Shown: one piece after another, positions 40,262 to 49,987 of the stretch
How the letters are laid out: each line of letters begins with the position of its first letter
How positions within the stretch are numbered: the first letter of the stretch is position 1
Notes under the pieces: model-generated
Databases searched by the model: none
Told to the model about the DNA's origin: nothing
The model's input: only the letters and a program-made list of their open reading frames with translations
Position numbers and translations under genes: made by a program
From: an uncultured Thermoanaerobaculum sp.
Lineage (GTDB): Bacteria; Acidobacteriota; Thermoanaerobaculia; Thermoanaerobaculales; Thermoanaerobaculaceae
Direction: 5' to 3'
Length of the DNA stretch: 64,000 nt
Assembly: GCA_937934115.1 (NCBI GenBank)
Contig: CALHAH010000022.1
Location: forward strand, 23,119-87,118

Positions 40262-40669
40262 ATGGCTCGTTCGGCTCTTTCCACTCTCGTGCAACGATTT
40301 AAGGCGCTGGCCCACCCGGCGCGTTTGCGGATGGCGGCTATGCTTGCCACGGGTGAGCTGTGCGTATGTCAAATTGTGGCCGTTCTCCAGCTTGCTCCCT
40401 CCACTGTGTCAGCGCACCTTGCAACCCTCCGGCGCGGTGGTCTCGTGGGCCAGCGTAAGGACGGTCGCTGGGTCTTCTACTACTTGGAAGACGAGGGCAG
40501 GGAGCTTCTCGCCCTGATTCAGAATGAACTTGCTGCTATTCCACAAGTGGCCATGGACGCTGTGGTTGTGGCCCGCCTGCGAAGCTTCAGCCCCGAGGAC
40601 TTGTGCCGCGTGGACTTAGATTTGGGCCGGCTGGGCATTTCTCCTGTCTCGCCTTTGCGGAAGGCTTGA
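40262..40669 (+). CDS. arsR: ArsR-family transcriptional regulator
   Basis: FKALAHPARLRMAAMLATGELCVCQIVAVLQLAPSTVSAHLATLRRGGLVGQRKDGRWVFYYL (ELCVC metal-site motif). Confidence 0.88.
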   Translation: MARSALSTLVQRFKALAHPARLRMAAMLATGELCVCQIVAVLQLAPSTVSAHLATLRRGGLVGQRKDGRWVFYYLEDEGRELLALIQNELAAIPQVAMDAVVVARLRSFSPEDLCRVDLDLGRLGISPVSPLRKA

Positions 40670-41279: not shown

Positions 41280-42371
41280 ATGACAAGCAAGACTGCGAAG
41301 ATGAACGTTTTCGAGCGGTACTTGAGCCTTTGGGTCGCCCTGTGCATGGTGGTTGGGGTTGCCCTTGGTAAGTTATTCCCTGGTTTAACGTCGGCGCTGC
41401 GTGCGTTGGAGTTTGGCGAAGGATCGCAAATCAACGTTCCCATTGCCGTGCTCATTTGGCTCATGGTGTATCCGATGATGCTGAAAGTTGACTTTGCCTC
41501 CGTCGCGCGGGTGAGCCGCAAGCCGAAGGGGCTTTTCATTACGGTGGTGGTGAACTGGCTTGTGAAGCCCTTTTCCATGGCGGTTTTTGGCTGGGTCTTC
41601 TTCAAGCATCTCTTCTTGCCGCTGATTGGACCGGAGCTGGCAAGCCAGTATATTGCTGGTGTGATCATTTTGGCGGCAGCGCCCTGTACTGCCATGGTGT
41701 TTGTGTGGTCGTATCTTGCTGACGGTGATCCCGCCTACACGCTGGTCCAGGTCTCGGTTAATGACCTTATCATGTTGGTGGCCTTCGCGCCGGTGGTGAA
41801 GCTTTTGGTGTCCGGGGCTACGGACTTGGAAGTTCCGTTTAAGGTTCTCATCTATTCGGTGCTTGTGTTTGTGGTGGTACCTCTGGCCTTGGGCTCGTTG
41901 TCGCGTTGGTGGCTCATCCGCACCAAAGGACCGGCGTGGTTCGCTGAGAAGTTTGTGGCGTTTTTCCACCCCATTACCGTCTTTGCCCTTTTGGGGACGT
42001 TGGTGTTGATCTTCGCATTCCAAGCTGAAAACATCACCACGCGCTGGTTCCATGTGTTGCTGATTGCGGTTCCCCTTATCATTCAGGTCTACTTTAACTC
42101 GTCGCTGACCTACGGGCTTATGAGGCTTTTCCGCGTAGAGTACTCAGTGGCGGCTCCAGGGGCGCTCATTGGAGCGTCCAACTTCTTTGAGCTGGCGGTG
42201 GCCACGGCCATTGCCCTTTACGGTCCCGGTTCCGGGGCAGCTTTGGCCACTGTGGTGGGGGTGCTGGTGGAGGTGCCGGTGATGCTTTCGGTGTGCCGGT
42301 TTTGCTTGGCGACCAAGCACTGGTTTGCGGCTGCTCCGGCTGTGACCGCGGAAGGGACGCACCATGTTTGA
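41280..42371 (+). CDS. acr3: ACR3-family arsenite efflux transporter
   Basis: LIWLMVYPMMLKVDF, VIILAAAPCTAMVFVWSYLADGDPAYTLVQVSVNDLIML, SSLTYGLMRLF. Confidence 0.9.
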   Translation: MTSKTAKMNVFERYLSLWVALCMVVGVALGKLFPGLTSALRALEFGEGSQINVPIAVLIWLMVYPMMLKVDFASVARVSRKPKGLFITVVVNWLVKPFSMAVFGWVFFKHLFLPLIGPELASQYIAGVIILAAAPCTAMVFVWSYLADGDPAYTLVQVSVNDLIMLVAFAPVVKLLVSGATDLEVPFKVLIYSVLVFVVVPLALGSLSRWWLIRTKGPAWFAEKFVAFFHPITVFALLGTLVLIFAFQAENITTRWFHVLLIAVPLIIQVYFNSSLTYGLMRLFRVEYSVAAPGALIGASNFFELAVATAIALYGPGSGAALATVVGVLVEVPVMLSVCRFCLATKHWFAAAPAVTAEGTHHV

Positions 42372-43230
42372 AAGGTTAGTTTTTGCCACGGATCTCTCCC
42401 CTGCTTCCGATATGGCCCTTGACTGCGTGGCCCGCTGGAAGGGTCTGGGCTTGCGCAAGGTGACGGTTACCCACGTTCACAGCTTGGCTCGCTCCGCGGG
42501 TTTGGAGGACATATTACGCCGAGACCACGAGCCGAAGCTGGAGCGCCAGGCGCAACGTTTGCGGGACGCGGGTCTTTTTGCCTCCTGGAGGTTGGAGTTT
42601 GGCGTGCCCTACTTGGAACTGGAAGGGATTGCCCGCCAGGAGGGCGCCGAAGCTGTGGTGCTTGGCTCCCATGGCAGCTCCTGGGTGAAGGAAGTTTGGC
42701 TGGGTTCAGTGGCGGATGCCATCTTGCGCCATGTGCAGCTGCCGGTGCTCGTCATTAAAGTTAACCTGCTTGCGGCTATGTCGGGTGCGGAGTGTGGCCA
42801 TTTTTGCGACTCGCTTTTTAGTCGTGTGCTCCTGGCCACAGATTTTTCGCCAGCTTCCAGCGGTGCGATAGCCTTCGCCAAGCTGTTAGCACGGAAAGCA
42901 GCACCTGCCTTTCATCTCCTACATGTGCAAGAACACAGTCGCATCGTCCCTCATTTGACGAGCCGCCTGGACGAATGTAACCGCGAGGATTTGCGCCGCC
43001 TCGATGCTCTCGGTTCTGAGCTTCGCAACGCCGGGGCAAGCGATGTCACTGTGGAGGTACGTTTTGACCATGCGGTCCGTGGCATCCTTTCGGCCATTAA
43101 AGCGTGGAACCCGGGGCTGGTGTTGGTGGGCCGTCATGGGCGGGGGGGGCGGCGTTTGATCGGTTCCGTGGCGCACGATGTGGCCCGGGAGAGTCCGGCG
43201 CCGGTGCTGGTGGTCCCGGGGGAGGTGTGA
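42364..43230 (+). CDS. Tandem universal stress protein (two UspA domains)
   Basis: VFATDLSPASDMA...VLGSHGSSWVKEVWLGSVADAILRHVQLPVLVIK and LLATDFSPASSGA...GRHGRGGRRLIGSVAHDVARESPAPVLVV. Confidence 0.9.
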   Translation: MFERLVFATDLSPASDMALDCVARWKGLGLRKVTVTHVHSLARSAGLEDILRRDHEPKLERQAQRLRDAGLFASWRLEFGVPYLELEGIARQEGAEAVVLGSHGSSWVKEVWLGSVADAILRHVQLPVLVIKVNLLAAMSGAECGHFCDSLFSRVLLATDFSPASSGAIAFAKLLARKAAPAFHLLHVQEHSRIVPHLTSRLDECNREDLRRLDALGSELRNAGASDVTVEVRFDHAVRGILSAIKAWNPGLVLVGRHGRGGRRLIGSVAHDVARESPAPVLVVPGEV

Positions 43231-43231
43231 T

Positions 43232-43447
43232 ATGCCGGTGTACGAGTTTATTTGCCAAAAGTGTGGCAAGCCCAGTGAGTTTCGGGCTACGGTGGCGGAG
43301 TACAGCAAAGGACTGGCAGCACAGTGCCCCCACTGTGGCTCTACGAAGCTTATTCGGAGTTTTTCGTCGGTGGGGCTGGTGACCTCCGCAGGCGGGCGTG
43401 GCCCCGTTTGCGGACCTGGGGCAGGCCCGGGCTGCTGCGGACGGTAA
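43232..43447 (+). CDS. FmdB-type zinc-ribbon protein with C-terminal GPGCCGR
   Basis: MPVYEFICQKCGKPSEF...CPHCGSTKLIRSFSS; Cys-rich tail. Confidence 0.8.
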   Translation: MPVYEFICQKCGKPSEFRATVAEYSKGLAAQCPHCGSTKLIRSFSSVGLVTSAGGRGPVCGPGAGPGCCGR

Positions 43448-43459
43448 AAGGAGGTGACG

Positions 43460-43858
43460 ATGTCCACAGTTCATGAAACGGTAACCCCTGGCGTGGTGCA
43501 GGCGGCCAAGGCACTGGCCGAAGCCATCCAGGGTTCGCCAGCCTGGCAGGCGTGGGAACAAGCTTGTGCCCGCTTTGAGAGCGACGCTGAGCTGCGGCGG
43601 GCGATGGAGCGACTGCAGCAGCTGTCAATGCAGTTTCGGCAAGCACGAGCCCAGGGGCGGGGCCTTTTCGGGCCGGCCGTGGCGGAAATGAACCGCTTGC
43701 AAATGGAAATCCAGCAGTCGCCCTTGGCGCAAAAGCGCGACCAAGCGGCGCAGGCACTATTAAGCTTCTTGCAGGCCACGAATCGGGTTCTCTCCGATGC
43801 GCTGGGAATTGACTTTGCCGCCAGTGCCGCCCCGCGCGGCGGCGGTTGCTGTGGCTAA
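43460..43858 (+). CDS. YlbF/YmcA-like helical protein with C-terminal GGGCCG
   Basis: ALAEAIQGSPAWQAWEQACARFESDAELRRAMERLQQLSMQFR; tail ...RGGGCCG*. Confidence 0.65.
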   Translation: MSTVHETVTPGVVQAAKALAEAIQGSPAWQAWEQACARFESDAELRRAMERLQQLSMQFRQARAQGRGLFGPAVAEMNRLQMEIQQSPLAQKRDQAAQALLSFLQATNRVLSDALGIDFAASAAPRGGGCCG

Positions 43859-43879: not shown

Positions 43880-44278
43880 ATGGCATCTGAGATGGGGCAG
43901 CCGAAGGGCCGGGCGGTGCTCTTTTGTGCCTGTTCGGGCGCGTGCCCAAGTATGGAGAAAATTGATTTTTGGGCCTTGGCGGAGCGCGTACGACTGGAAC
44001 TGGGTGATAAAGTGGAATTCCTCGCTTTGCACCCGCGTTTGTGTGAGGGGGACGGCGAAAAACTCATGGAACGCCTCTTGACACCAACGCTCAAGTTTAT
44101 TACCCCAGCGTGCGCGGAGAAGCGGCAAGAAAAACTGCTGCGCGACGGCTTTGCCAAAGCCGGGGTGCCCATGGATGAAGAGCACTGGATTCCTATTAGC
44201 ATGGCGCAGCAAGATACCGAAGCCGTTTTTGCACGGATCAAGGCGGCGTTGGCTGACGGCGCGCCGGGAAAGGAGTGA
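43880..44278 (+). CDS. Stand-alone HdrA N-terminal-like Cys protein
   Basis: VLFCACSGACPSMEKIDFWALAERV...LHPRLCEGDGEKLMERLL...ITPACAEKRQEKLLRDGFAKAGVP resembles the HdrA N-domain (xxFCxC...CS..G...ACSPR). Confidence 0.45.
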   Translation: MASEMGQPKGRAVLFCACSGACPSMEKIDFWALAERVRLELGDKVEFLALHPRLCEGDGEKLMERLLTPTLKFITPACAEKRQEKLLRDGFAKAGVPMDEEHWIPISMAQQDTEAVFARIKAALADGAPGKE

Positions 44279-44281
44279 CCC

Positions 44282-44599
44282 ATGCCTGGGCGCACGTACC
44301 TGGGTATCCCCCGGGAGCGTATCCCTTGGGCGCCAAAGATTGACGCTGACGCGTGCAGAGGATGCGGTGAGTGCTTGGAAATGTGTCCCAACGGTGTCTT
44401 TGCGCTTAATGAGGATGAGGGCAAGATGACTGTGGTGGCGCCGGAGAATTGCGTGGTTCTCTGTGACAAGTGCGGACCCCTCTGTCCTACCGAAGCCATC
44501 TCTTTTCCCGACAAGGAAGAAACCAAGCGGTTGCTGCAACGCTTGTTGCGGGAGCAACAGGGGCTCCAGGCGGTAGCGGGGGGCGCAAGCGGCCTTTAA
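44282..44599 (+). CDS. 4Fe-4S ferredoxin-like protein
   Basis: CRGCGECLEMCP and CVVLCDKCGPLCP. Confidence 0.8.
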   Translation: MPGRTYLGIPRERIPWAPKIDADACRGCGECLEMCPNGVFALNEDEGKMTVVAPENCVVLCDKCGPLCPTEAISFPDKEETKRLLQRLLREQQGLQAVAGGASGL

Positions 44600-44756: not shown

Positions 44757-46178
44757 ATGGCTGAGTTTTTTGAAAGTAGACCTAACACCCTGGGCGGTAC
44801 GGCCGAGGGGAAGGGAGCCACCGCCCAAGACACCATGGAAACCCCGGGAGCGGCGGCTACCCACGGGTTTCGTCCCACGCCCACCATGTGGCTGTACTTG
44901 GCTTTGGTGGTGGTGATGTACGTTTCGGCACTGGTGTACGCCGTGCATCATGGGCTTTCCATCAAATCACTGTACCTTTACGGTTTGCTGCAACCCCCGG
45001 GCATTGAAGGGGAGGAAGCCCGCATAGCGGAAATTCCCACGCCCCTGTCCTGGAACGTAGCCCAGGTAGCGTGGTTCATTTACATCAAAGCCGCGGCGGT
45101 TTTGGTGGAGCTCTTTCAGTACTGGGTGGTGGGCATGCTCATTGCCGGGGCGCTAATCGTTTTTGTTTCCTGGGAGAAGGTGAAGGCGAAGATGGGGTAC
45201 GGGGGCTTTAAGGCCAATCTTTTGGCCACCTCCGCCGGAGCCGTGATTCCCATTTGTTCCTGCGGCATTGTGCCGGTGTTGGCCGGTATGGTGGAGGCGG
45301 GTATTCCCTTGGGCCCCACTATGGCGTTTCTGGTGGCGGCGCCCATGCTCAACATCCCCACGGTGTTCATGACTGCGGGGGTGCTGGGCTGGCCCATGGC
45401 CTTGGCTAGGGTGATTGCAACCTTTGGCATTGCTCTGGCGGTGGGTGGGGTTTTGGTGGCGTGGCAGCGGCGCCACCGCAACCCCCGCCATTTCTTGAAG
45501 ATCTACATTCCACCCAAACTTTCCCCGGAACTTGCGCAGTTTGCCTTTCGCTTTGGCATGCTAGCGGCGCAAAACCCCGCAGGGGTACGGGCAGAAGAAC
45601 TGGGTCCCGGGGCCGAGGCCAAGCTTGTGCAGCTGGAAGAAGGTGGGATGGTAGAACGTACGGCCGACGGGCGGTGGAAGCTCTACGAGGCGGAGGAGGC
45701 GCACATTAAAAGCGTGGGGGCTTGCGCGGTGTTACCTACGGGCTCCAGTATGGCGGGTGCGTCCCTCTGGGAAAAGCTTGCGGAAACCGGCCGCACGGGT
45801 TTGCGCTTGTTTATTCAGCTGAATGGCTATCTGCTGCTGGCGGTGCTTATTGCTGGGGCGATTAAGGTGCTTTTGCCCACGTCACTCATTACCAGTTGGG
45901 TGGGAGGTACCGCCCTCAACAGCGTGCTCGTGGCCGCGGCGGTTGCGGTTTTAGCCTACGTGTGCACCTACGTGGAAGTGCCTACTGCTCTGGCACTGAT
46001 GAGCAAAGGCATGGGACCAGGTGCCACCTTGGCGTACCTGTTGGGGGGGCCGGGGTTGTCTTTGCCCTCCATCGCTATGCTTTCCGGAGTTTTTCGGGCG
46101 AAGGTGCTGGCCTTGTACGTGGGGGTTTCTCTTTTCGGTTGCGTGCTGGCCGGGTACGTGTACAACCTTTTCATGTAG
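44757..46178 (+). CDS. ArsP/DUF318 (COG0701-type) permease, copy 1
   Basis: GAVIPICSCGIVPVLAGMVEAGIPLGPTMAFLVAAPMLNIPTVFMTAGVLGWPMALAR; YVEVPTALALMSKGMGPGATLAYLLGGPGLSLPSI. Confidence 0.85.
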   Translation: MAEFFESRPNTLGGTAEGKGATAQDTMETPGAAATHGFRPTPTMWLYLALVVVMYVSALVYAVHHGLSIKSLYLYGLLQPPGIEGEEARIAEIPTPLSWNVAQVAWFIYIKAAAVLVELFQYWVVGMLIAGALIVFVSWEKVKAKMGYGGFKANLLATSAGAVIPICSCGIVPVLAGMVEAGIPLGPTMAFLVAAPMLNIPTVFMTAGVLGWPMALARVIATFGIALAVGGVLVAWQRRHRNPRHFLKIYIPPKLSPELAQFAFRFGMLAAQNPAGVRAEELGPGAEAKLVQLEEGGMVERTADGRWKLYEAEEAHIKSVGACAVLPTGSSMAGASLWEKLAETGRTGLRLFIQLNGYLLLAVLIAGAIKVLLPTSLITSWVGGTALNSVLVAAAVAVLAYVCTYVEVPTALALMSKGMGPGATLAYLLGGPGLSLPSIAMLSGVFRAKVLALYVGVSLFGCVLAGYVYNLFM

Positions 46179-46190
46179 GAGGTTAGGTTC

Positions 46191-46541
46191 ATGAGCGACA
46201 ACAACAAAAACGTGCGTCTTTACTTTGCACCCCAGTCGTTTCCCTGCGGCCCTGATTCCAGTTGCTGCGGGCCGGTGGGCCAAGCTCAGGAGGAGCTGGA
46301 GCAGTGGGCGCAGCAAATCAAAGCGGCCCTGCCGGAGGTGACGGTGGACTTCATTGACGTGACGAAACCCCTCCGGCTGGATCGGGATGGCGCCGTTATT
46401 CGTCTTTTGAATTCCTTTGGCTTGCAGGCGTGTCCCATTTTTGCAGTGGGTCGGGAAATCGTCTCCATGGGCCCGCCGGTGACTGATGAGCTCATCCCGC
46501 TCATTGCTGCGAAGCTGGGGGGCGCGGAGTCTGGCGCTTAG
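46191..46541 (+). CDS. ArsD/thioredoxin-fold-like protein with CGPDSSCCGP motif
   Basis: YFAPQSFPCGPDSSCCGPVGQAQEELEQW...LQACPIFAVGREIVSMGPP; ArsD-like Cys pattern and VDGEIV-like strand. Confidence 0.55.
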   Translation: MSDNNKNVRLYFAPQSFPCGPDSSCCGPVGQAQEELEQWAQQIKAALPEVTVDFIDVTKPLRLDRDGAVIRLLNSFGLQACPIFAVGREIVSMGPPVTDELIPLIAAKLGGAESGA

Positions 46542-46558: not shown

Positions 46559-46975
46559 ATGATGCAACAGGCTCTTCAGGTGCTCAAAAATGCCAAAAGC
46601 TTCGCGCTCCTGGGAGCCTCCGCCGAGCCGGGAAAGTACGGCCATAAGGTATTCCAGACACTGAAGGACCATTACCGAGTTTTTCCGGTAAACCCCAAGC
46701 GCACGGAAATTGACGGCACCCCATGCTTTTCTTCTTACGGCGAGGTCCCGGAAAAACCGGATGCGGTGATCCTGGCCTTAGCACCACAGGTCACGGAAGC
46801 GGTGGTGCCAACGCTTGTTGCCCAGGGTGCGCCGCTGCTCTGGCTGCCGCCGGAGTGTTTCACCGATGCAGCTGTGACACGATGCACTGAAGCAGGGGTT
46901 CCTGTGATTTACGACATTTGTCCGGTGGCGGCTTTTGCCACGCTGCAACGGCAGCGGGCGGCTTTCGGTACGTAA
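46559..46975 (+). CDS. CoA-binding (YccU-type) Rossmann protein
   Basis: SFALLGASAEPGKYGHKVFQTLKDHYRVFPVNPKRTEIDGTPCFSSYGEVPEKPDAVILALAP. Confidence 0.8.
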   Translation: MMQQALQVLKNAKSFALLGASAEPGKYGHKVFQTLKDHYRVFPVNPKRTEIDGTPCFSSYGEVPEKPDAVILALAPQVTEAVVPTLVAQGAPLLWLPPECFTDAAVTRCTEAGVPVIYDICPVAAFATLQRQRAAFGT

Positions 46976-47384: not shown

Positions 47385-47801
47385 GTGAAGAAAACAAAAA
47401 CAAGCTTCGTCCTCGGCACGGTGGTTCTTCTCATGACCGCTTTGAGCTTTGCGGAAGCGCAAGGACCAACATCTCCCCCCGTGGGGGTGGCGTCACCCGC
47501 AGACCTCAGCGCGCTTTTGAAAAGCGGTAAATGGGTCATTGTGGAGTTTGGAGGAGAACACTGCATCCCCTGCCGGGCTATGCAGCCAATTCTGCAAAAG
47601 CTGCGGGATGAGCTTGCGGGGAAAGTGGAGATCCGCAACTTTTGGGTCCAGGAGCATCCCCCGGTGGCCCGCCAATACAGGGTGATGGTGATTCCCACGC
47701 AAGTGGTTTTTAACCCCAAAGGTGAAGAGGTTTTCCGGCACATGGGGTATTACCCGTTGGAGGAGTTTCGGGCGGCATTGGCGGAAAAGGGACTAAAGTG
47801 A
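47385..47801 (+). CDS. Secreted thioredoxin-like protein (CIPC)
   Basis: Signal peptide; WVIVEFGGEHCIPCRAMQPILQKL; RYRVMVIPTQVVFNPKG-type cis-Pro; RBS GGAAAGGAGG, GTG start. Confidence 0.85.
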   Translation: MKKTKTSFVLGTVVLLMTALSFAEAQGPTSPPVGVASPADLSALLKSGKWVIVEFGGEHCIPCRAMQPILQKLRDELAGKVEIRNFWVQEHPPVARQYRVMVIPTQVVFNPKGEEVFRHMGYYPLEEFRAALAEKGLK

Positions 47802-48506
47802 ATGGAAAGCCTGCTTACTGAGCTGGCCCAGCGCGCTGCGGCTGCCCCTCCCTTGCTCACTTTAGCGTTGGTTTTTCTCGGGGGTCTTCTGTCCTCTGCC
47901 AGTCCCTGCGTGCTGGCGGCGGTGCCCTTAATTGTTGCCACGGTGGGCGGAACCAGCACGAGCCGACAGCGAGCCCTGGTTTTAACCCTAGCGTTTGTTT
48001 CAGGTTTGGTGCTGTGTTTTACGCTTTTGGGGGCGTTGGCTGCCCTCACTGGCAGGTTGATTGGCGACGTGGGACCAGGCTGGCTCGTGCTCTTGGGTGT
48101 GGTGGCCGTGGCCATGGGGGCGTACCTAGCCCGCCTTGTGCAGTTGCCTTTACCACAGGTAAGGCCGAGCAGGCTGCGGGGTGCCGGCGTGCTGGGGGCT
48201 TTCGCCTTGGGGGCCTTGACCGGTACGCTGTCGTCACCTTGTGCCACGCCTATCCTCGTGGTGATCCTGTCTTTGGTGGCCTTCGAACGGCAGGTGGCTT
48301 GGGGCATTTTATTGTTGGGAGTTTACGCTTTAGGTCATGTGGTGCTTCTCTTTGCTGCCGGTGCGGTAAGTGGTTTTGCCACGGCTTTTCTTTCAAGCCG
48401 GGCGGCCCGGTGGGGTGAACGCCTCCATCGCGCCTTTGGTATGGTGCTTTTGGGACTTGGTTTGTGGGTACTGATTCCGGCGTTACATCGGTGGTTAGCG
48501 CCGTGA
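47802..48506 (+). CDS. ccdA: CcdA/DsbD-type transmembrane thiol transporter
   Basis: SSASPCVLAAVPLIVA...GALTGTLSSPCATPILVVIL paired TM cysteines. Confidence 0.85.
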   Translation: MESLLTELAQRAAAAPPLLTLALVFLGGLLSSASPCVLAAVPLIVATVGGTSTSRQRALVLTLAFVSGLVLCFTLLGALAALTGRLIGDVGPGWLVLLGVVAVAMGAYLARLVQLPLPQVRPSRLRGAGVLGAFALGALTGTLSSPCATPILVVILSLVAFERQVAWGILLLGVYALGHVVLLFAAGAVSGFATAFLSSRAARWGERLHRAFGMVLLGLGLWVLIPALHRWLAP

Positions 48507-48526
48507 CACAAAGGGGGGAGAAAAAC

Positions 48527-48775
48527 ATGAGCGACGTGAAGGTAATTGAGGTTTTGGGGCCAGGATGTCCGCGCTGTAAAGCCACCTTAGAAGTGGTGCA
48601 GAAGGTGGTAGAAGAGGCGGGCCTTTCCTGCCAAGTGATAAAAAACGAATCCATTGACCGTATGGTGGAGCTGGGCCTCATGGCCACGCCAGGAGTTGCC
48701 GTGGATGGTAAAGTGGTGATTTTTGGACGAATTCCAAAACCAGAGGAGGTCCGTCGCGCCCTTGGTTTGGTGTGA
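48527..48775 (+). CDS. Small redox-active-disulfide (MTH895-like) thioredoxin/glutaredoxin
   Basis: VIEVLGPGCPRCKATLEVVQKVVEEAG...GLMATPGVAVDGKVVIFG. Confidence 0.88.
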   Translation: MSDVKVIEVLGPGCPRCKATLEVVQKVVEEAGLSCQVIKNESIDRMVELGLMATPGVAVDGKVVIFGRIPKPEEVRRALGLV

Positions 48776-48808: not shown

Positions 48809-49987
48809 ATGAATGAGCGGACCAAGCTCGGCCTTATAGTCGCGGTTTTCTTGGCGGCGTATTTTCTGCCCATAGAGCACGCGCGCGTGCAGCAGTCCTT
48901 TTTGGAAGGCCTGTTTCTCCTAAAGGACTATGCCCGTCAGCACGTGTTGCTGTGTCTTGTGCCGGCTTTTTTCATTGCTGGAGCTATTGGCGTTTTCGTA
49001 AGCCAGGGGGCAGTGTGGCGCTACCTGGGATCCACTGCTCCCCGGCATGTGGCGTACGGGGTCGCTGCCGTTTCGGGATCTATCCTTGCCGTTTGTTCGT
49101 GTACAGTCCTCCCTTTGTTTGCTGGAATTTACAAGCGAGGTGCCGGGCTCGGACCGGCTACGGCCTTTCTTTACTCAGGTCCTGCCATCAATGTGCTAGC
49201 CATTATCCTCACGGCCCGAGTTTTGGGTCTTGAACTTGGCCTTGCCAGGGCCATAGGTGCGGTTTTGTTTGCGGTGGTGATGGGAGTGCTCATGGCAGTG
49301 ATATTCCGGCGGGAGGAGGCGGAACGGCAGGCGGCGGGGGTGGATCCTTTCGCGTACCAGAGCTCGGAAGAAGGTCGAAAGGGGTGGCAAGACGCTACCT
49401 TCATGGCGGTAATGGTGGGCATTTTGGTTTTTGCCAACTGGGGTGAACCGAATCGGATGGTTGGCCTGTTTGCTTTCATATGGCGAATTCATTGGGTCCT
49501 GGTGGCGGTGTTGGGTGTGGCTTTAGTTTTAATGCTTTGGCGCTGGTACGACCGAGAAGAGTTGCGTAGCTGGGTGGAAGCGAGCTGGGGTTTTGCCAAG
49601 CAAATTTTTCCTCTCCTTTTCGCCGGAGTCTTGGTCTCCGGCTGGCTGTTGGGCCGGCCTGGTCTGGACCACGGAATCATTCCAGCCCGCTGGGTGGCCT
49701 CGGTGGTGGGTGGCAACTCCCTTAGTGCCAACCTTGTGGCGTCGGTGGTGGGGGCGTTTATGTACTTTGCCACCCTCACCGAGGTTCCCATTTTGCAAAC
49801 CCTCCTTGGTGCCGGCATGGGCAAGGGACCAGCTCTGGCTTTGCTGCTTGCGGGACCAGCACTTTCTTTGCCCAATATGTTGGTCATCAACTCTTACCTT
49901 GGCCCTAAGAAGACCGTTACCTATGTTTCTCTGGTGGTGATTATGGCTACCTTGTCGGGACTCATTTTTGGGACCGTGGCAAGCTAA
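48809..49987 (+). CDS. ArsP/DUF318 permease, copy 2
   Basis: SILAVCSCTVLPLFAGIYKRGAGLGPATAFLYSGPAINVLAIILTARVLG; TEVPILQTLLGAGMGKGPALALLLAGPALSLPNML. Confidence 0.85.
   Translation: MNERTKLGLIVAVFLAAYFLPIEHARVQQSFLEGLFLLKDYARQHVLLCLVPAFFIAGAIGVFVSQGAVWRYLGSTAPRHVAYGVAAVSGSILAVCSCTVLPLFAGIYKRGAGLGPATAFLYSGPAINVLAIILTARVLGLELGLARAIGAVLFAVVMGVLMAVIFRREEAERQAAGVDPFAYQSSEEGRKGWQDATFMAVMVGILVFANWGEPNRMVGLFAFIWRIHWVLVAVLGVALVLMLWRWYDREELRSWVEASWGFAKQIFPLLFAGVLVSGWLLGRPGLDHGIIPARWVASVVGGNSLSANLVASVVGAFMYFATLTEVPILQTLLGAGMGKGPALALLLAGPALSLPNMLVINSYLGPKKTVTYVSLVVIMATLSGLIFGTVAS

Follow-up and report, generated by a model that had tools for sequence, protein, structure and literature searches.

The window, that is, the whole stretch of 64,000 nucleotides analysed here, carries a long ars cluster encoded on a single strand, in which arsR is followed by acr3, usp, fmdB-CC, ylbF-CC, Orf132 and a ferredoxin gene, and which continues with an ArsP_1 permease, an ArsD-like protein, a CoA-binding protein, a thioredoxin, a CcdA-like protein, an ArsE-type protein and a second ArsP_1 permease. 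Its features are as follows:

40262..40669, + strand: arsR-type regulator gene (blastp to ArsR-type genes of related ars loci)
41283..42371, + strand: acr3 arsenite exporter (TIGR00832, 374.9 bits, cut-off 282.8)
42364..43230, + strand: usp, universal-stress-type, also next to acr3 in L021, L023, L029 and L030 (name taken from the sequence-only reading)
43232..43447, + strand: fmdB-CC, FmdB-type zinc ribbon of 71 aa with a C-x7-CC tail (TIGR02605 and PF09723, both above cut-off)
43409..43444, + strand: FmdB-CC tail, CGPGAGPGCCGR (from sequence)
43450..43455, + strand: Shine-Dalgarno GGAGGT of ylbF-CC (from sequence)
43460..43858, + strand: ylbF-CC, Com_YlbF protein with a CC tail (PF06133, 55.9 bits; helical model matching RicA/RicF)
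43838..43855, + strand: YlbF-CC tail, GGGCCG (from sequence)
43880..44278, + strand: Orf132, no known family (75-79% identity to copies in three other ars loci)
44282..44599, + strand: dicluster ferredoxin accompanying Orf132 (Fer4 families)
44757..46178, + strand: ArsP_1-type permease of the COG0701 kind (PF03773, 196 bits)
46191..46541, + strand: ArsD-like thioredoxin-fold protein with a C-x5-CC triad (hhalign, predicted model)
46245..46268, + strand: CGPDSSCC triad of the ArsD-like protein (C19, C25 and C26 invariant in six sequences)
46559..46975, + strand: CoA-binding-domain protein, kept in related ars loci (PF13380)
47418-48775, + strand: thioredoxin, CcdA-like membrane protein and ArsE-type thioredoxin
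48524..48775, + strand: MTH895/ArsE-type thioredoxin (TIGR00412, 82.3 bits, cut-off 62; start codon tentative)
48809..49987, + strand: second ArsP_1-type permease (PF03773, 261 bits)

The sequence-only reading had pointed to adjacent FmdB-type and YlbF-like proteins with Gly-rich Cys-Cys (CC) tails directly downstream of acr3-usp, and both the coordinates and the tails were confirmed in the sequence: fmdB-CC begins one base past the usp stop, and it and ylbF-CC lie on the same strand as acr3 and usp. FmdB-CC belongs to the FmdB family of zinc ribbons (TIGR02605, 49.6 bits against a cut-off of 31.3; CxxC pairs CQKC and CPHC), and its C-terminus before the stop is VCGPGAGPGCCGR. YlbF-CC is a Com_YlbF protein (gathering cut-off of PF06133, 23.9 bits) for which the ATG at 43460, preceded by the GGAGGT at 43450-43455, was preferred as start over the GTG at 43454, and the frame runs to a stop ending at 43858, with the C-terminus RGGGCCG. 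Its nearest NCBIfam model was HcsL (NF041416; 54.1 bits, below the cut-off of 140), and its predicted model consisted of a helical Com_YlbF core and a low-confidence tail, with RicA, RicF and relatives as the best structural matches. In the PDB, the YlbF profile also weakly matched Get1, the partner of the ArsA homologue Get3, but without significance (E about 0.6), and this was kept as an idea only. Since CC stands within the last six residues of just four of the 476 window ORFs of at least 50 aa, and two of these four are the adjacent fmdB-CC and ylbF-CC, the paired tails are more than chance. Across the window's own genome, the GCCG-stop pattern gave no convincing further tailed gene, the remainder being short or spurious frames.

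Directly behind this pair lies Orf132, which begins with CxCSGACPSM and had no Pfam or NCBIfam match. Orf132 and the dicluster ferredoxin were found together in the window (43880-44599) and in three other loci (L021:2958-3647, L023:8058-8784 and L030:5941-6660), with 63-79% identity among distant Acidobacteriota ars loci, a conservation higher than that of YlbF, and they are possibly an electron-transfer pair.

Among the five FmdB paralogues of the window's genome, the tail was present on the ars-cluster copy only. In 31 related genomes (all matches, minus two that were not recovered), CC occurred within the final eight residues of all three FmdB copies at an ars locus and of none of about 96 others, with a naive probability of 6e-6 that ignores kinship and includes a few doubtful frames. 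The FmdB tails neighbouring ylbF at related loci showed C-x7-CC in five cases and the mirrored CC-x7-C in one; fmdB was not detected at L021, L022 or L031.

Com_YlbF proteins are rare in Acidobacteriota: of 396 genomes, six had a match. Within the window's family they were found in four genomes, each of another genus, and they were absent from both congeners searched; of 41 related genomes, the four with YlbF-CC were also the four with the protein encoded at 46191. A single-protein search of the genome contigs gave no match, and a search with a six-row alignment gave eight loci. All eight Acidobacteriota Com_YlbF loci found kept CC and had ars-type genes alongside (tails GGGCCG, QGGCCG, QSSCCG, KSSCCG, GGSCCG, RGGCCG, QGGCCG and TGCC). 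The tail GGGCCG was also present in a Verrucomicrobiae locus with arsR, fmdB-CC, ylbF-CC and ArsP_1, and on a Bryobacteraceae contig where the ars-side neighbours were an arsR-type gene and usp only. CC tails were retained in orthologues as low as 22% identity and rank among the best-conserved parts of divergent YlbF-CC proteins. Tail conservation in orthologues, one of two genomic checks named in the sequence-only reading, was borne out at all eight Acidobacteriota loci and in Verrucomicrobiae and Bryobacteraceae; on the other, enrichment near ars genes, CC-tailed YlbF and FmdB proteins were nearly always found with ars genes, with one clear exception beside sufBC (below). A census of the tail pattern over the 396 genomes was abandoned as too noisy, at least 243 genomes being matched and the reversed control often matching as well. 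On plasmids, close relatives of the window's YlbF and of the 46191 protein were not found.

Three family members have a canonical arsD in the interval from ylbF to the 46191-like gene; there L030 has a tandem arsA-type gene besides arsD, and at the arsD/arsA place of L029 and L031 similar words occur in frames that are broken up. The window has neither a canonical arsD nor an arsA-type gene. A third Cys stands 3-7 residues from the CC pair in one or more tails of most loci; one member of most CC-tailed pairs carries a C-xn-CC triad, a pattern that was noticed post hoc. In a non-ars setting, a Verrucomicrobiae YlbF-type protein (L101:7922-9551) with the tail CGSGCSCGH is divergently encoded from an mnmA-like (tRNA thiolation) gene, a name given from reading the sequence.

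A clear Com_YlbF locus was present in 9 of 301 Chloroflexota genomes, with ars genes in seven of the nine; arsD or arsA accompanied YlbF in G335, G434, G456 and G689, and an ArsP-type permease, ArsE or ArsR in G460, G667 and G680, and the gene order arsD-arsA-ylbF-ylbF was observed. Strict CC was found at three of the seven ars-linked loci (G434, G456 and G689), the other tails being CSC (G335), CGCGG (G460) and SC (G667), and the only copy seen in G680 had no tail Cys. In G648, a fused YlbF pair without tail Cys was not with ars genes. The YlbF pair of G536 (L091:7999-10701) has SufC- and SufBD-type genes, not ars genes, immediately ahead of it, and one of its copies ends in GGCCG; the link between the CC tail and ars genes is strong but not absolute. 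In another Chloroflexota locus (L094:9083-10294), a chromate-transporter gene lies between an ArsP-type permease and the YlbF pair.

A search with the YlbF copy of G111, which like that of G434 has an exact CC terminus, led to annotated hcsL-hcsS pairs on haloarchaeal plasmids; HcsL and HcsS, the 'halo-CC-star' proteins, have already been named by NCBI. A search with one HcsL gave 24 records, and in all 12 haloarchaeal plasmid regions viewed (some plasmids being close kin and not independent) the order was arsD-arsA-hcsL-hcsS, with the last 4 bp of arsA shared with hcsL and with HcsL and HcsS both terminating in CC. One of the 12 is the ars locus of the Halobacterium NRC-1 plasmid pNRC100 (HcsL against NF041416, 150.4 bits), whose pair breaks the C-xn-CC pattern, having no third Cys in either tail. 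There hcsL and hcsS lie between arsA and arsR2-arsM (L080:2971-7890) and are skipped by the name arsADRC. In the consulted passages of a review, this locus is named arsADRC and arsR2M, knock-outs in NRC-1 bear on As(III)/Sb(III) resistance, a novel transporter is proposed because ArsB plays no role in arsenite resistance, and hcsL and hcsS are not mentioned (PMC3600143).

The 46191 protein indeed contains CGPDSSCCGP, as the sequence-only reading had stated; this motif is better read as an ArsD-like reversed thiol triad than as another tail. Neither Pfam (PF06953 included) nor NCBIfam gave a match for the protein, even with E raised to 10. Comparison with the ArsD family by hhalign gave 94%, and the top Foldseek matches of the predicted model (pLDDT 84) were ArsD crystal structures, with modest scores (probability 1.00, E 2.6e-3, TM 0.55-0.65). 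The invariant Cys residues form C-x5-CC, the reverse of the CC-x4-C of ArsD, and no N-terminal CC-x4-C was present.

Other folds do carry tails of this kind. One ArsD, that of L023, has the C-terminus GGGCAPGSGCC. In three haloarchaeal ars clusters, an Rdx (SelW-like) protein is extended by about 20 residues, the last of which read CSPGCC; a fourth close copy with a CSPGCC-type extension had no annotated ars gene within 4 kb (the four genes being L084:5660-5965, L085:5660-5965, L086:6939-7244 and L235:4001-4306), and seven Rdx proteins of more remote kinship, 76-82 aa long, lacked the extension. A like tail is found on folds without detectable relationship, namely Com_YlbF, the FmdB zinc ribbon, one ArsD and Rdx, in agreement with the earlier view that the tails sit on unrelated folds. 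Overall, the interpretation offered in the sequence-only reading is supported in part.

The conservation of paired CC proteins in the ars clusters of several phyla and in haloarchaeal relatives suggests that the tails are add-on arsenite handles. We consider it probable (roughly 0.6) that FmdB-CC and YlbF-CC are accessory proteins of the ars operon with portable C-terminal handles for the capture of As(III)/Sb(III) and its hand-off to efflux. Each protein would display a flexible C-terminus, rich in Gly and Pro and terminated by a vicinal Cys pair; the tail thiols, together with the 46191 ArsD-like protein, would capture trivalent arsenic (or antimony), which would then pass by thiol exchange to exporters encoded nearby, the receiver being ArsA in haloarchaea and Chloroflexota and Acr3 or the ArsP_1 permeases in the window. 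The CC tail itself may be a transferable handle carried by several folds. The sequences show the folds, the tails and their conservation, the ars linkage and, among FmdB and Rdx proteins, a near-confinement of the tail to ars-linked copies; the ligand As(III), its hand-off and the exporter that would receive it are putative, and a metallochaperone role for the tailed proteins is proposed from the ars linkage and the thiol arrangement. The As(III) sites of ArsD (C12, C13 and C18; PMC4562236) and of an ArsR (C95, C96 and C102; PMC2440759) each consist of three Cys; the C-terminal Cys pair of MerA binds Hg(II) and swings inward for delivery (PMC4500099), and in HgcB both C-terminal Cys together are required for full activity, with a delivery role proposed (PMC7305189). 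Counting against handles are the suf-linked CC copy of G536, the strict CC at only three of the seven ars-linked Chloroflexota loci, the use of tail Cys for an Fe-S cluster by RicA/RicF, the best-studied proteins of the fold, and the C-terminal Cys pairs of R773 ArsD, which are linked to regulation (repressor function) and not to the chaperone role (PMC4562236). In a more specific form, to which we would give somewhat less than even odds, the CC pair (HcsL-HcsS in haloarchaea, YlbF1-YlbF2 in Chloroflexota, YlbF-FmdB in Acidobacteriota) would be an unrecognised part of ars systems in two domains of life, an adaptor supplying As(III)/Sb(III) to ArsA or a different exporter and belonging, in NRC-1, to the ArsB-independent route; its tail would be a portable metalloid handle occurring on at least four folds.

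The main rival, still live though rather improbable in our judgement, is an Fe-S role, in which the tails would be putative Fe-S ligands at a protein interface, as in RicA/RicF, and the pair would be an Fe-S sensor or repair arsenite-damaged clusters. In the B. subtilis RicAFT complex, C134 and C146 of RicF and C141 of RicA, near the C-termini, ligate [4Fe-4S] together with RicT, and the authors deem two adjacent Cys unusual as ligands of one cluster, which is the arrangement in the tails here (PMC6751060). The resemblance of the YlbF-CC model to RicA/RicF, the SufBD- and SufC-type genes adjoining the G536 copy and the ferredoxin gene two genes downstream in the window speak for such a role; the ars linkage of nearly all loci and the adjacency of the two tail Cys speak against it. 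A search for RicT (PF04468) gave no match in G000, the genome of the window (96.7% complete), or in four other carriers, although a Haloferax control search was likewise without a match. Membership of the Ric (Y) complex was rejected because this RicT/PSP1 partner was not found in the window's genome.

Less likely still, the tails would be ordinary Cys ends in the FmdB and YlbF families, serving redox or zinc functions in general and having no particular tie to arsenic, their operon position being incidental. One or two spaced Cys are common in the tails of other FmdB paralogues (for example MPCGAPSAASCGSGGFT), so the ars-linked FmdB tail may have descended from such an end, and the non-ars Verrucomicrobiae YlbF beside mnmA has its Cys-rich tail. 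However, adjacent CC was confined to the ars-linked copies among FmdB proteins, the tail is among the best-conserved parts of divergent YlbF-CC, the Rdx extension occurs only in the ars-type copies, and the 4 bp arsA/hcsL overlap in haloarchaea argues for more than incidental position. In Firmicutes, Com_YlbF proteins work with RNase Y. That partnership and the tie of the R773 ArsD C-terminal pairs to repressor function (PMC4562236) would suit regulators in which metalloid binding by the tail alters the FmdB zinc ribbon (binding of nucleic acid or protein) or the YlbF helical dimer (RNA processing) and tunes ars expression, which we regard as very improbable given that the genome of the window gave no match to RicT, the adaptor of RNase Y, that ArsR is already in every cluster and that hcsL-hcsS is coupled to arsA and not to a regulator gene.

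If the tails are metalloid handles recurring across folds, they would constitute a soft-metal hand-off trait that can be transferred, and would serve as a genomic marker of metalloid-handling proteins. Although ars operons are well studied, the papers found assign no role to the conserved pair of small proteins whose genes follow arsA directly in haloarchaea and follow acr3 or arsA in bacteria, and the question of hcsL-hcsS is directly testable because both genes lie in the ars locus of NRC-1, an organism with working knock-out genetics. The open-access literature (subscription papers lying mostly outside) held no report linking HcsL/HcsS, YlbF or FmdB to ars operons; papers naming FmdB and arsenite presumably concern, by their titles, formylmethanofuran dehydrogenase or selenoprotein lists. 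C-terminal vicinal-thiol metal handling is already known, and what we rate as new are the members from bacteria, a linkage to ars genes that spans domains and the occurrence of the tail on several folds.

Among known systems, RicA/RicF (YmcA/YlbF) share the fold and essential Cys in a disordered C-terminal tail with the window's YlbF, which differs in its single copy without a detected RicT, its ars context and its vicinal rather than spaced Cys. With HcsL (NF041416) and HcsS (NF041415) it shares a Com_YlbF-type protein, a C-terminal CC, an ars cluster (acr3, arsR and ArsP_1 in the window, as expected of an HcsL neighbourhood) and a small CC-tailed neighbour; it is nevertheless not an HcsL equivalog, scoring 54 bits against 140, ending in CCG instead of CC and having FmdB-CC, a zinc ribbon, and Orf132 as neighbours instead of HcsS, and the window has acr3 and no arsA, in contrast to the arsD-arsA of haloarchaeal hcsL. 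A tree of YlbF-type proteins had deep branches without resolution, and a single clade of bacterial and haloarchaeal ars copies is for this reason not claimed. ArsD resembles the 46191 protein in fold and in three conserved Cys, and the ArsD proteins of R773 and L023 themselves bear C-terminal CC pairs; the 46191 protein differs in its C-x5-CC and its missing Pfam ArsD match, and FmdB and YlbF are other folds. SaoC (NF040734) is likewise a Cys-Cys-COOH (seleno)protein with C-terminal CC or CU, named with a transporter set whose SaoE model matched the window's ArsP_1 permeases below cut-off; SaoC itself matched none of the window proteins scanned against NCBIfam, and profile matching indicated no homology. 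As an analogy for the CC tails, MerA (with HgcB) fits best: these proteins are not homologous to those of the window, they handle Hg and not As, and the tail is on the enzyme itself instead of on separate small proteins, but they share mobile C-terminal vicinal thiols that bind a soft metal ion and, in MerA, deliver it.
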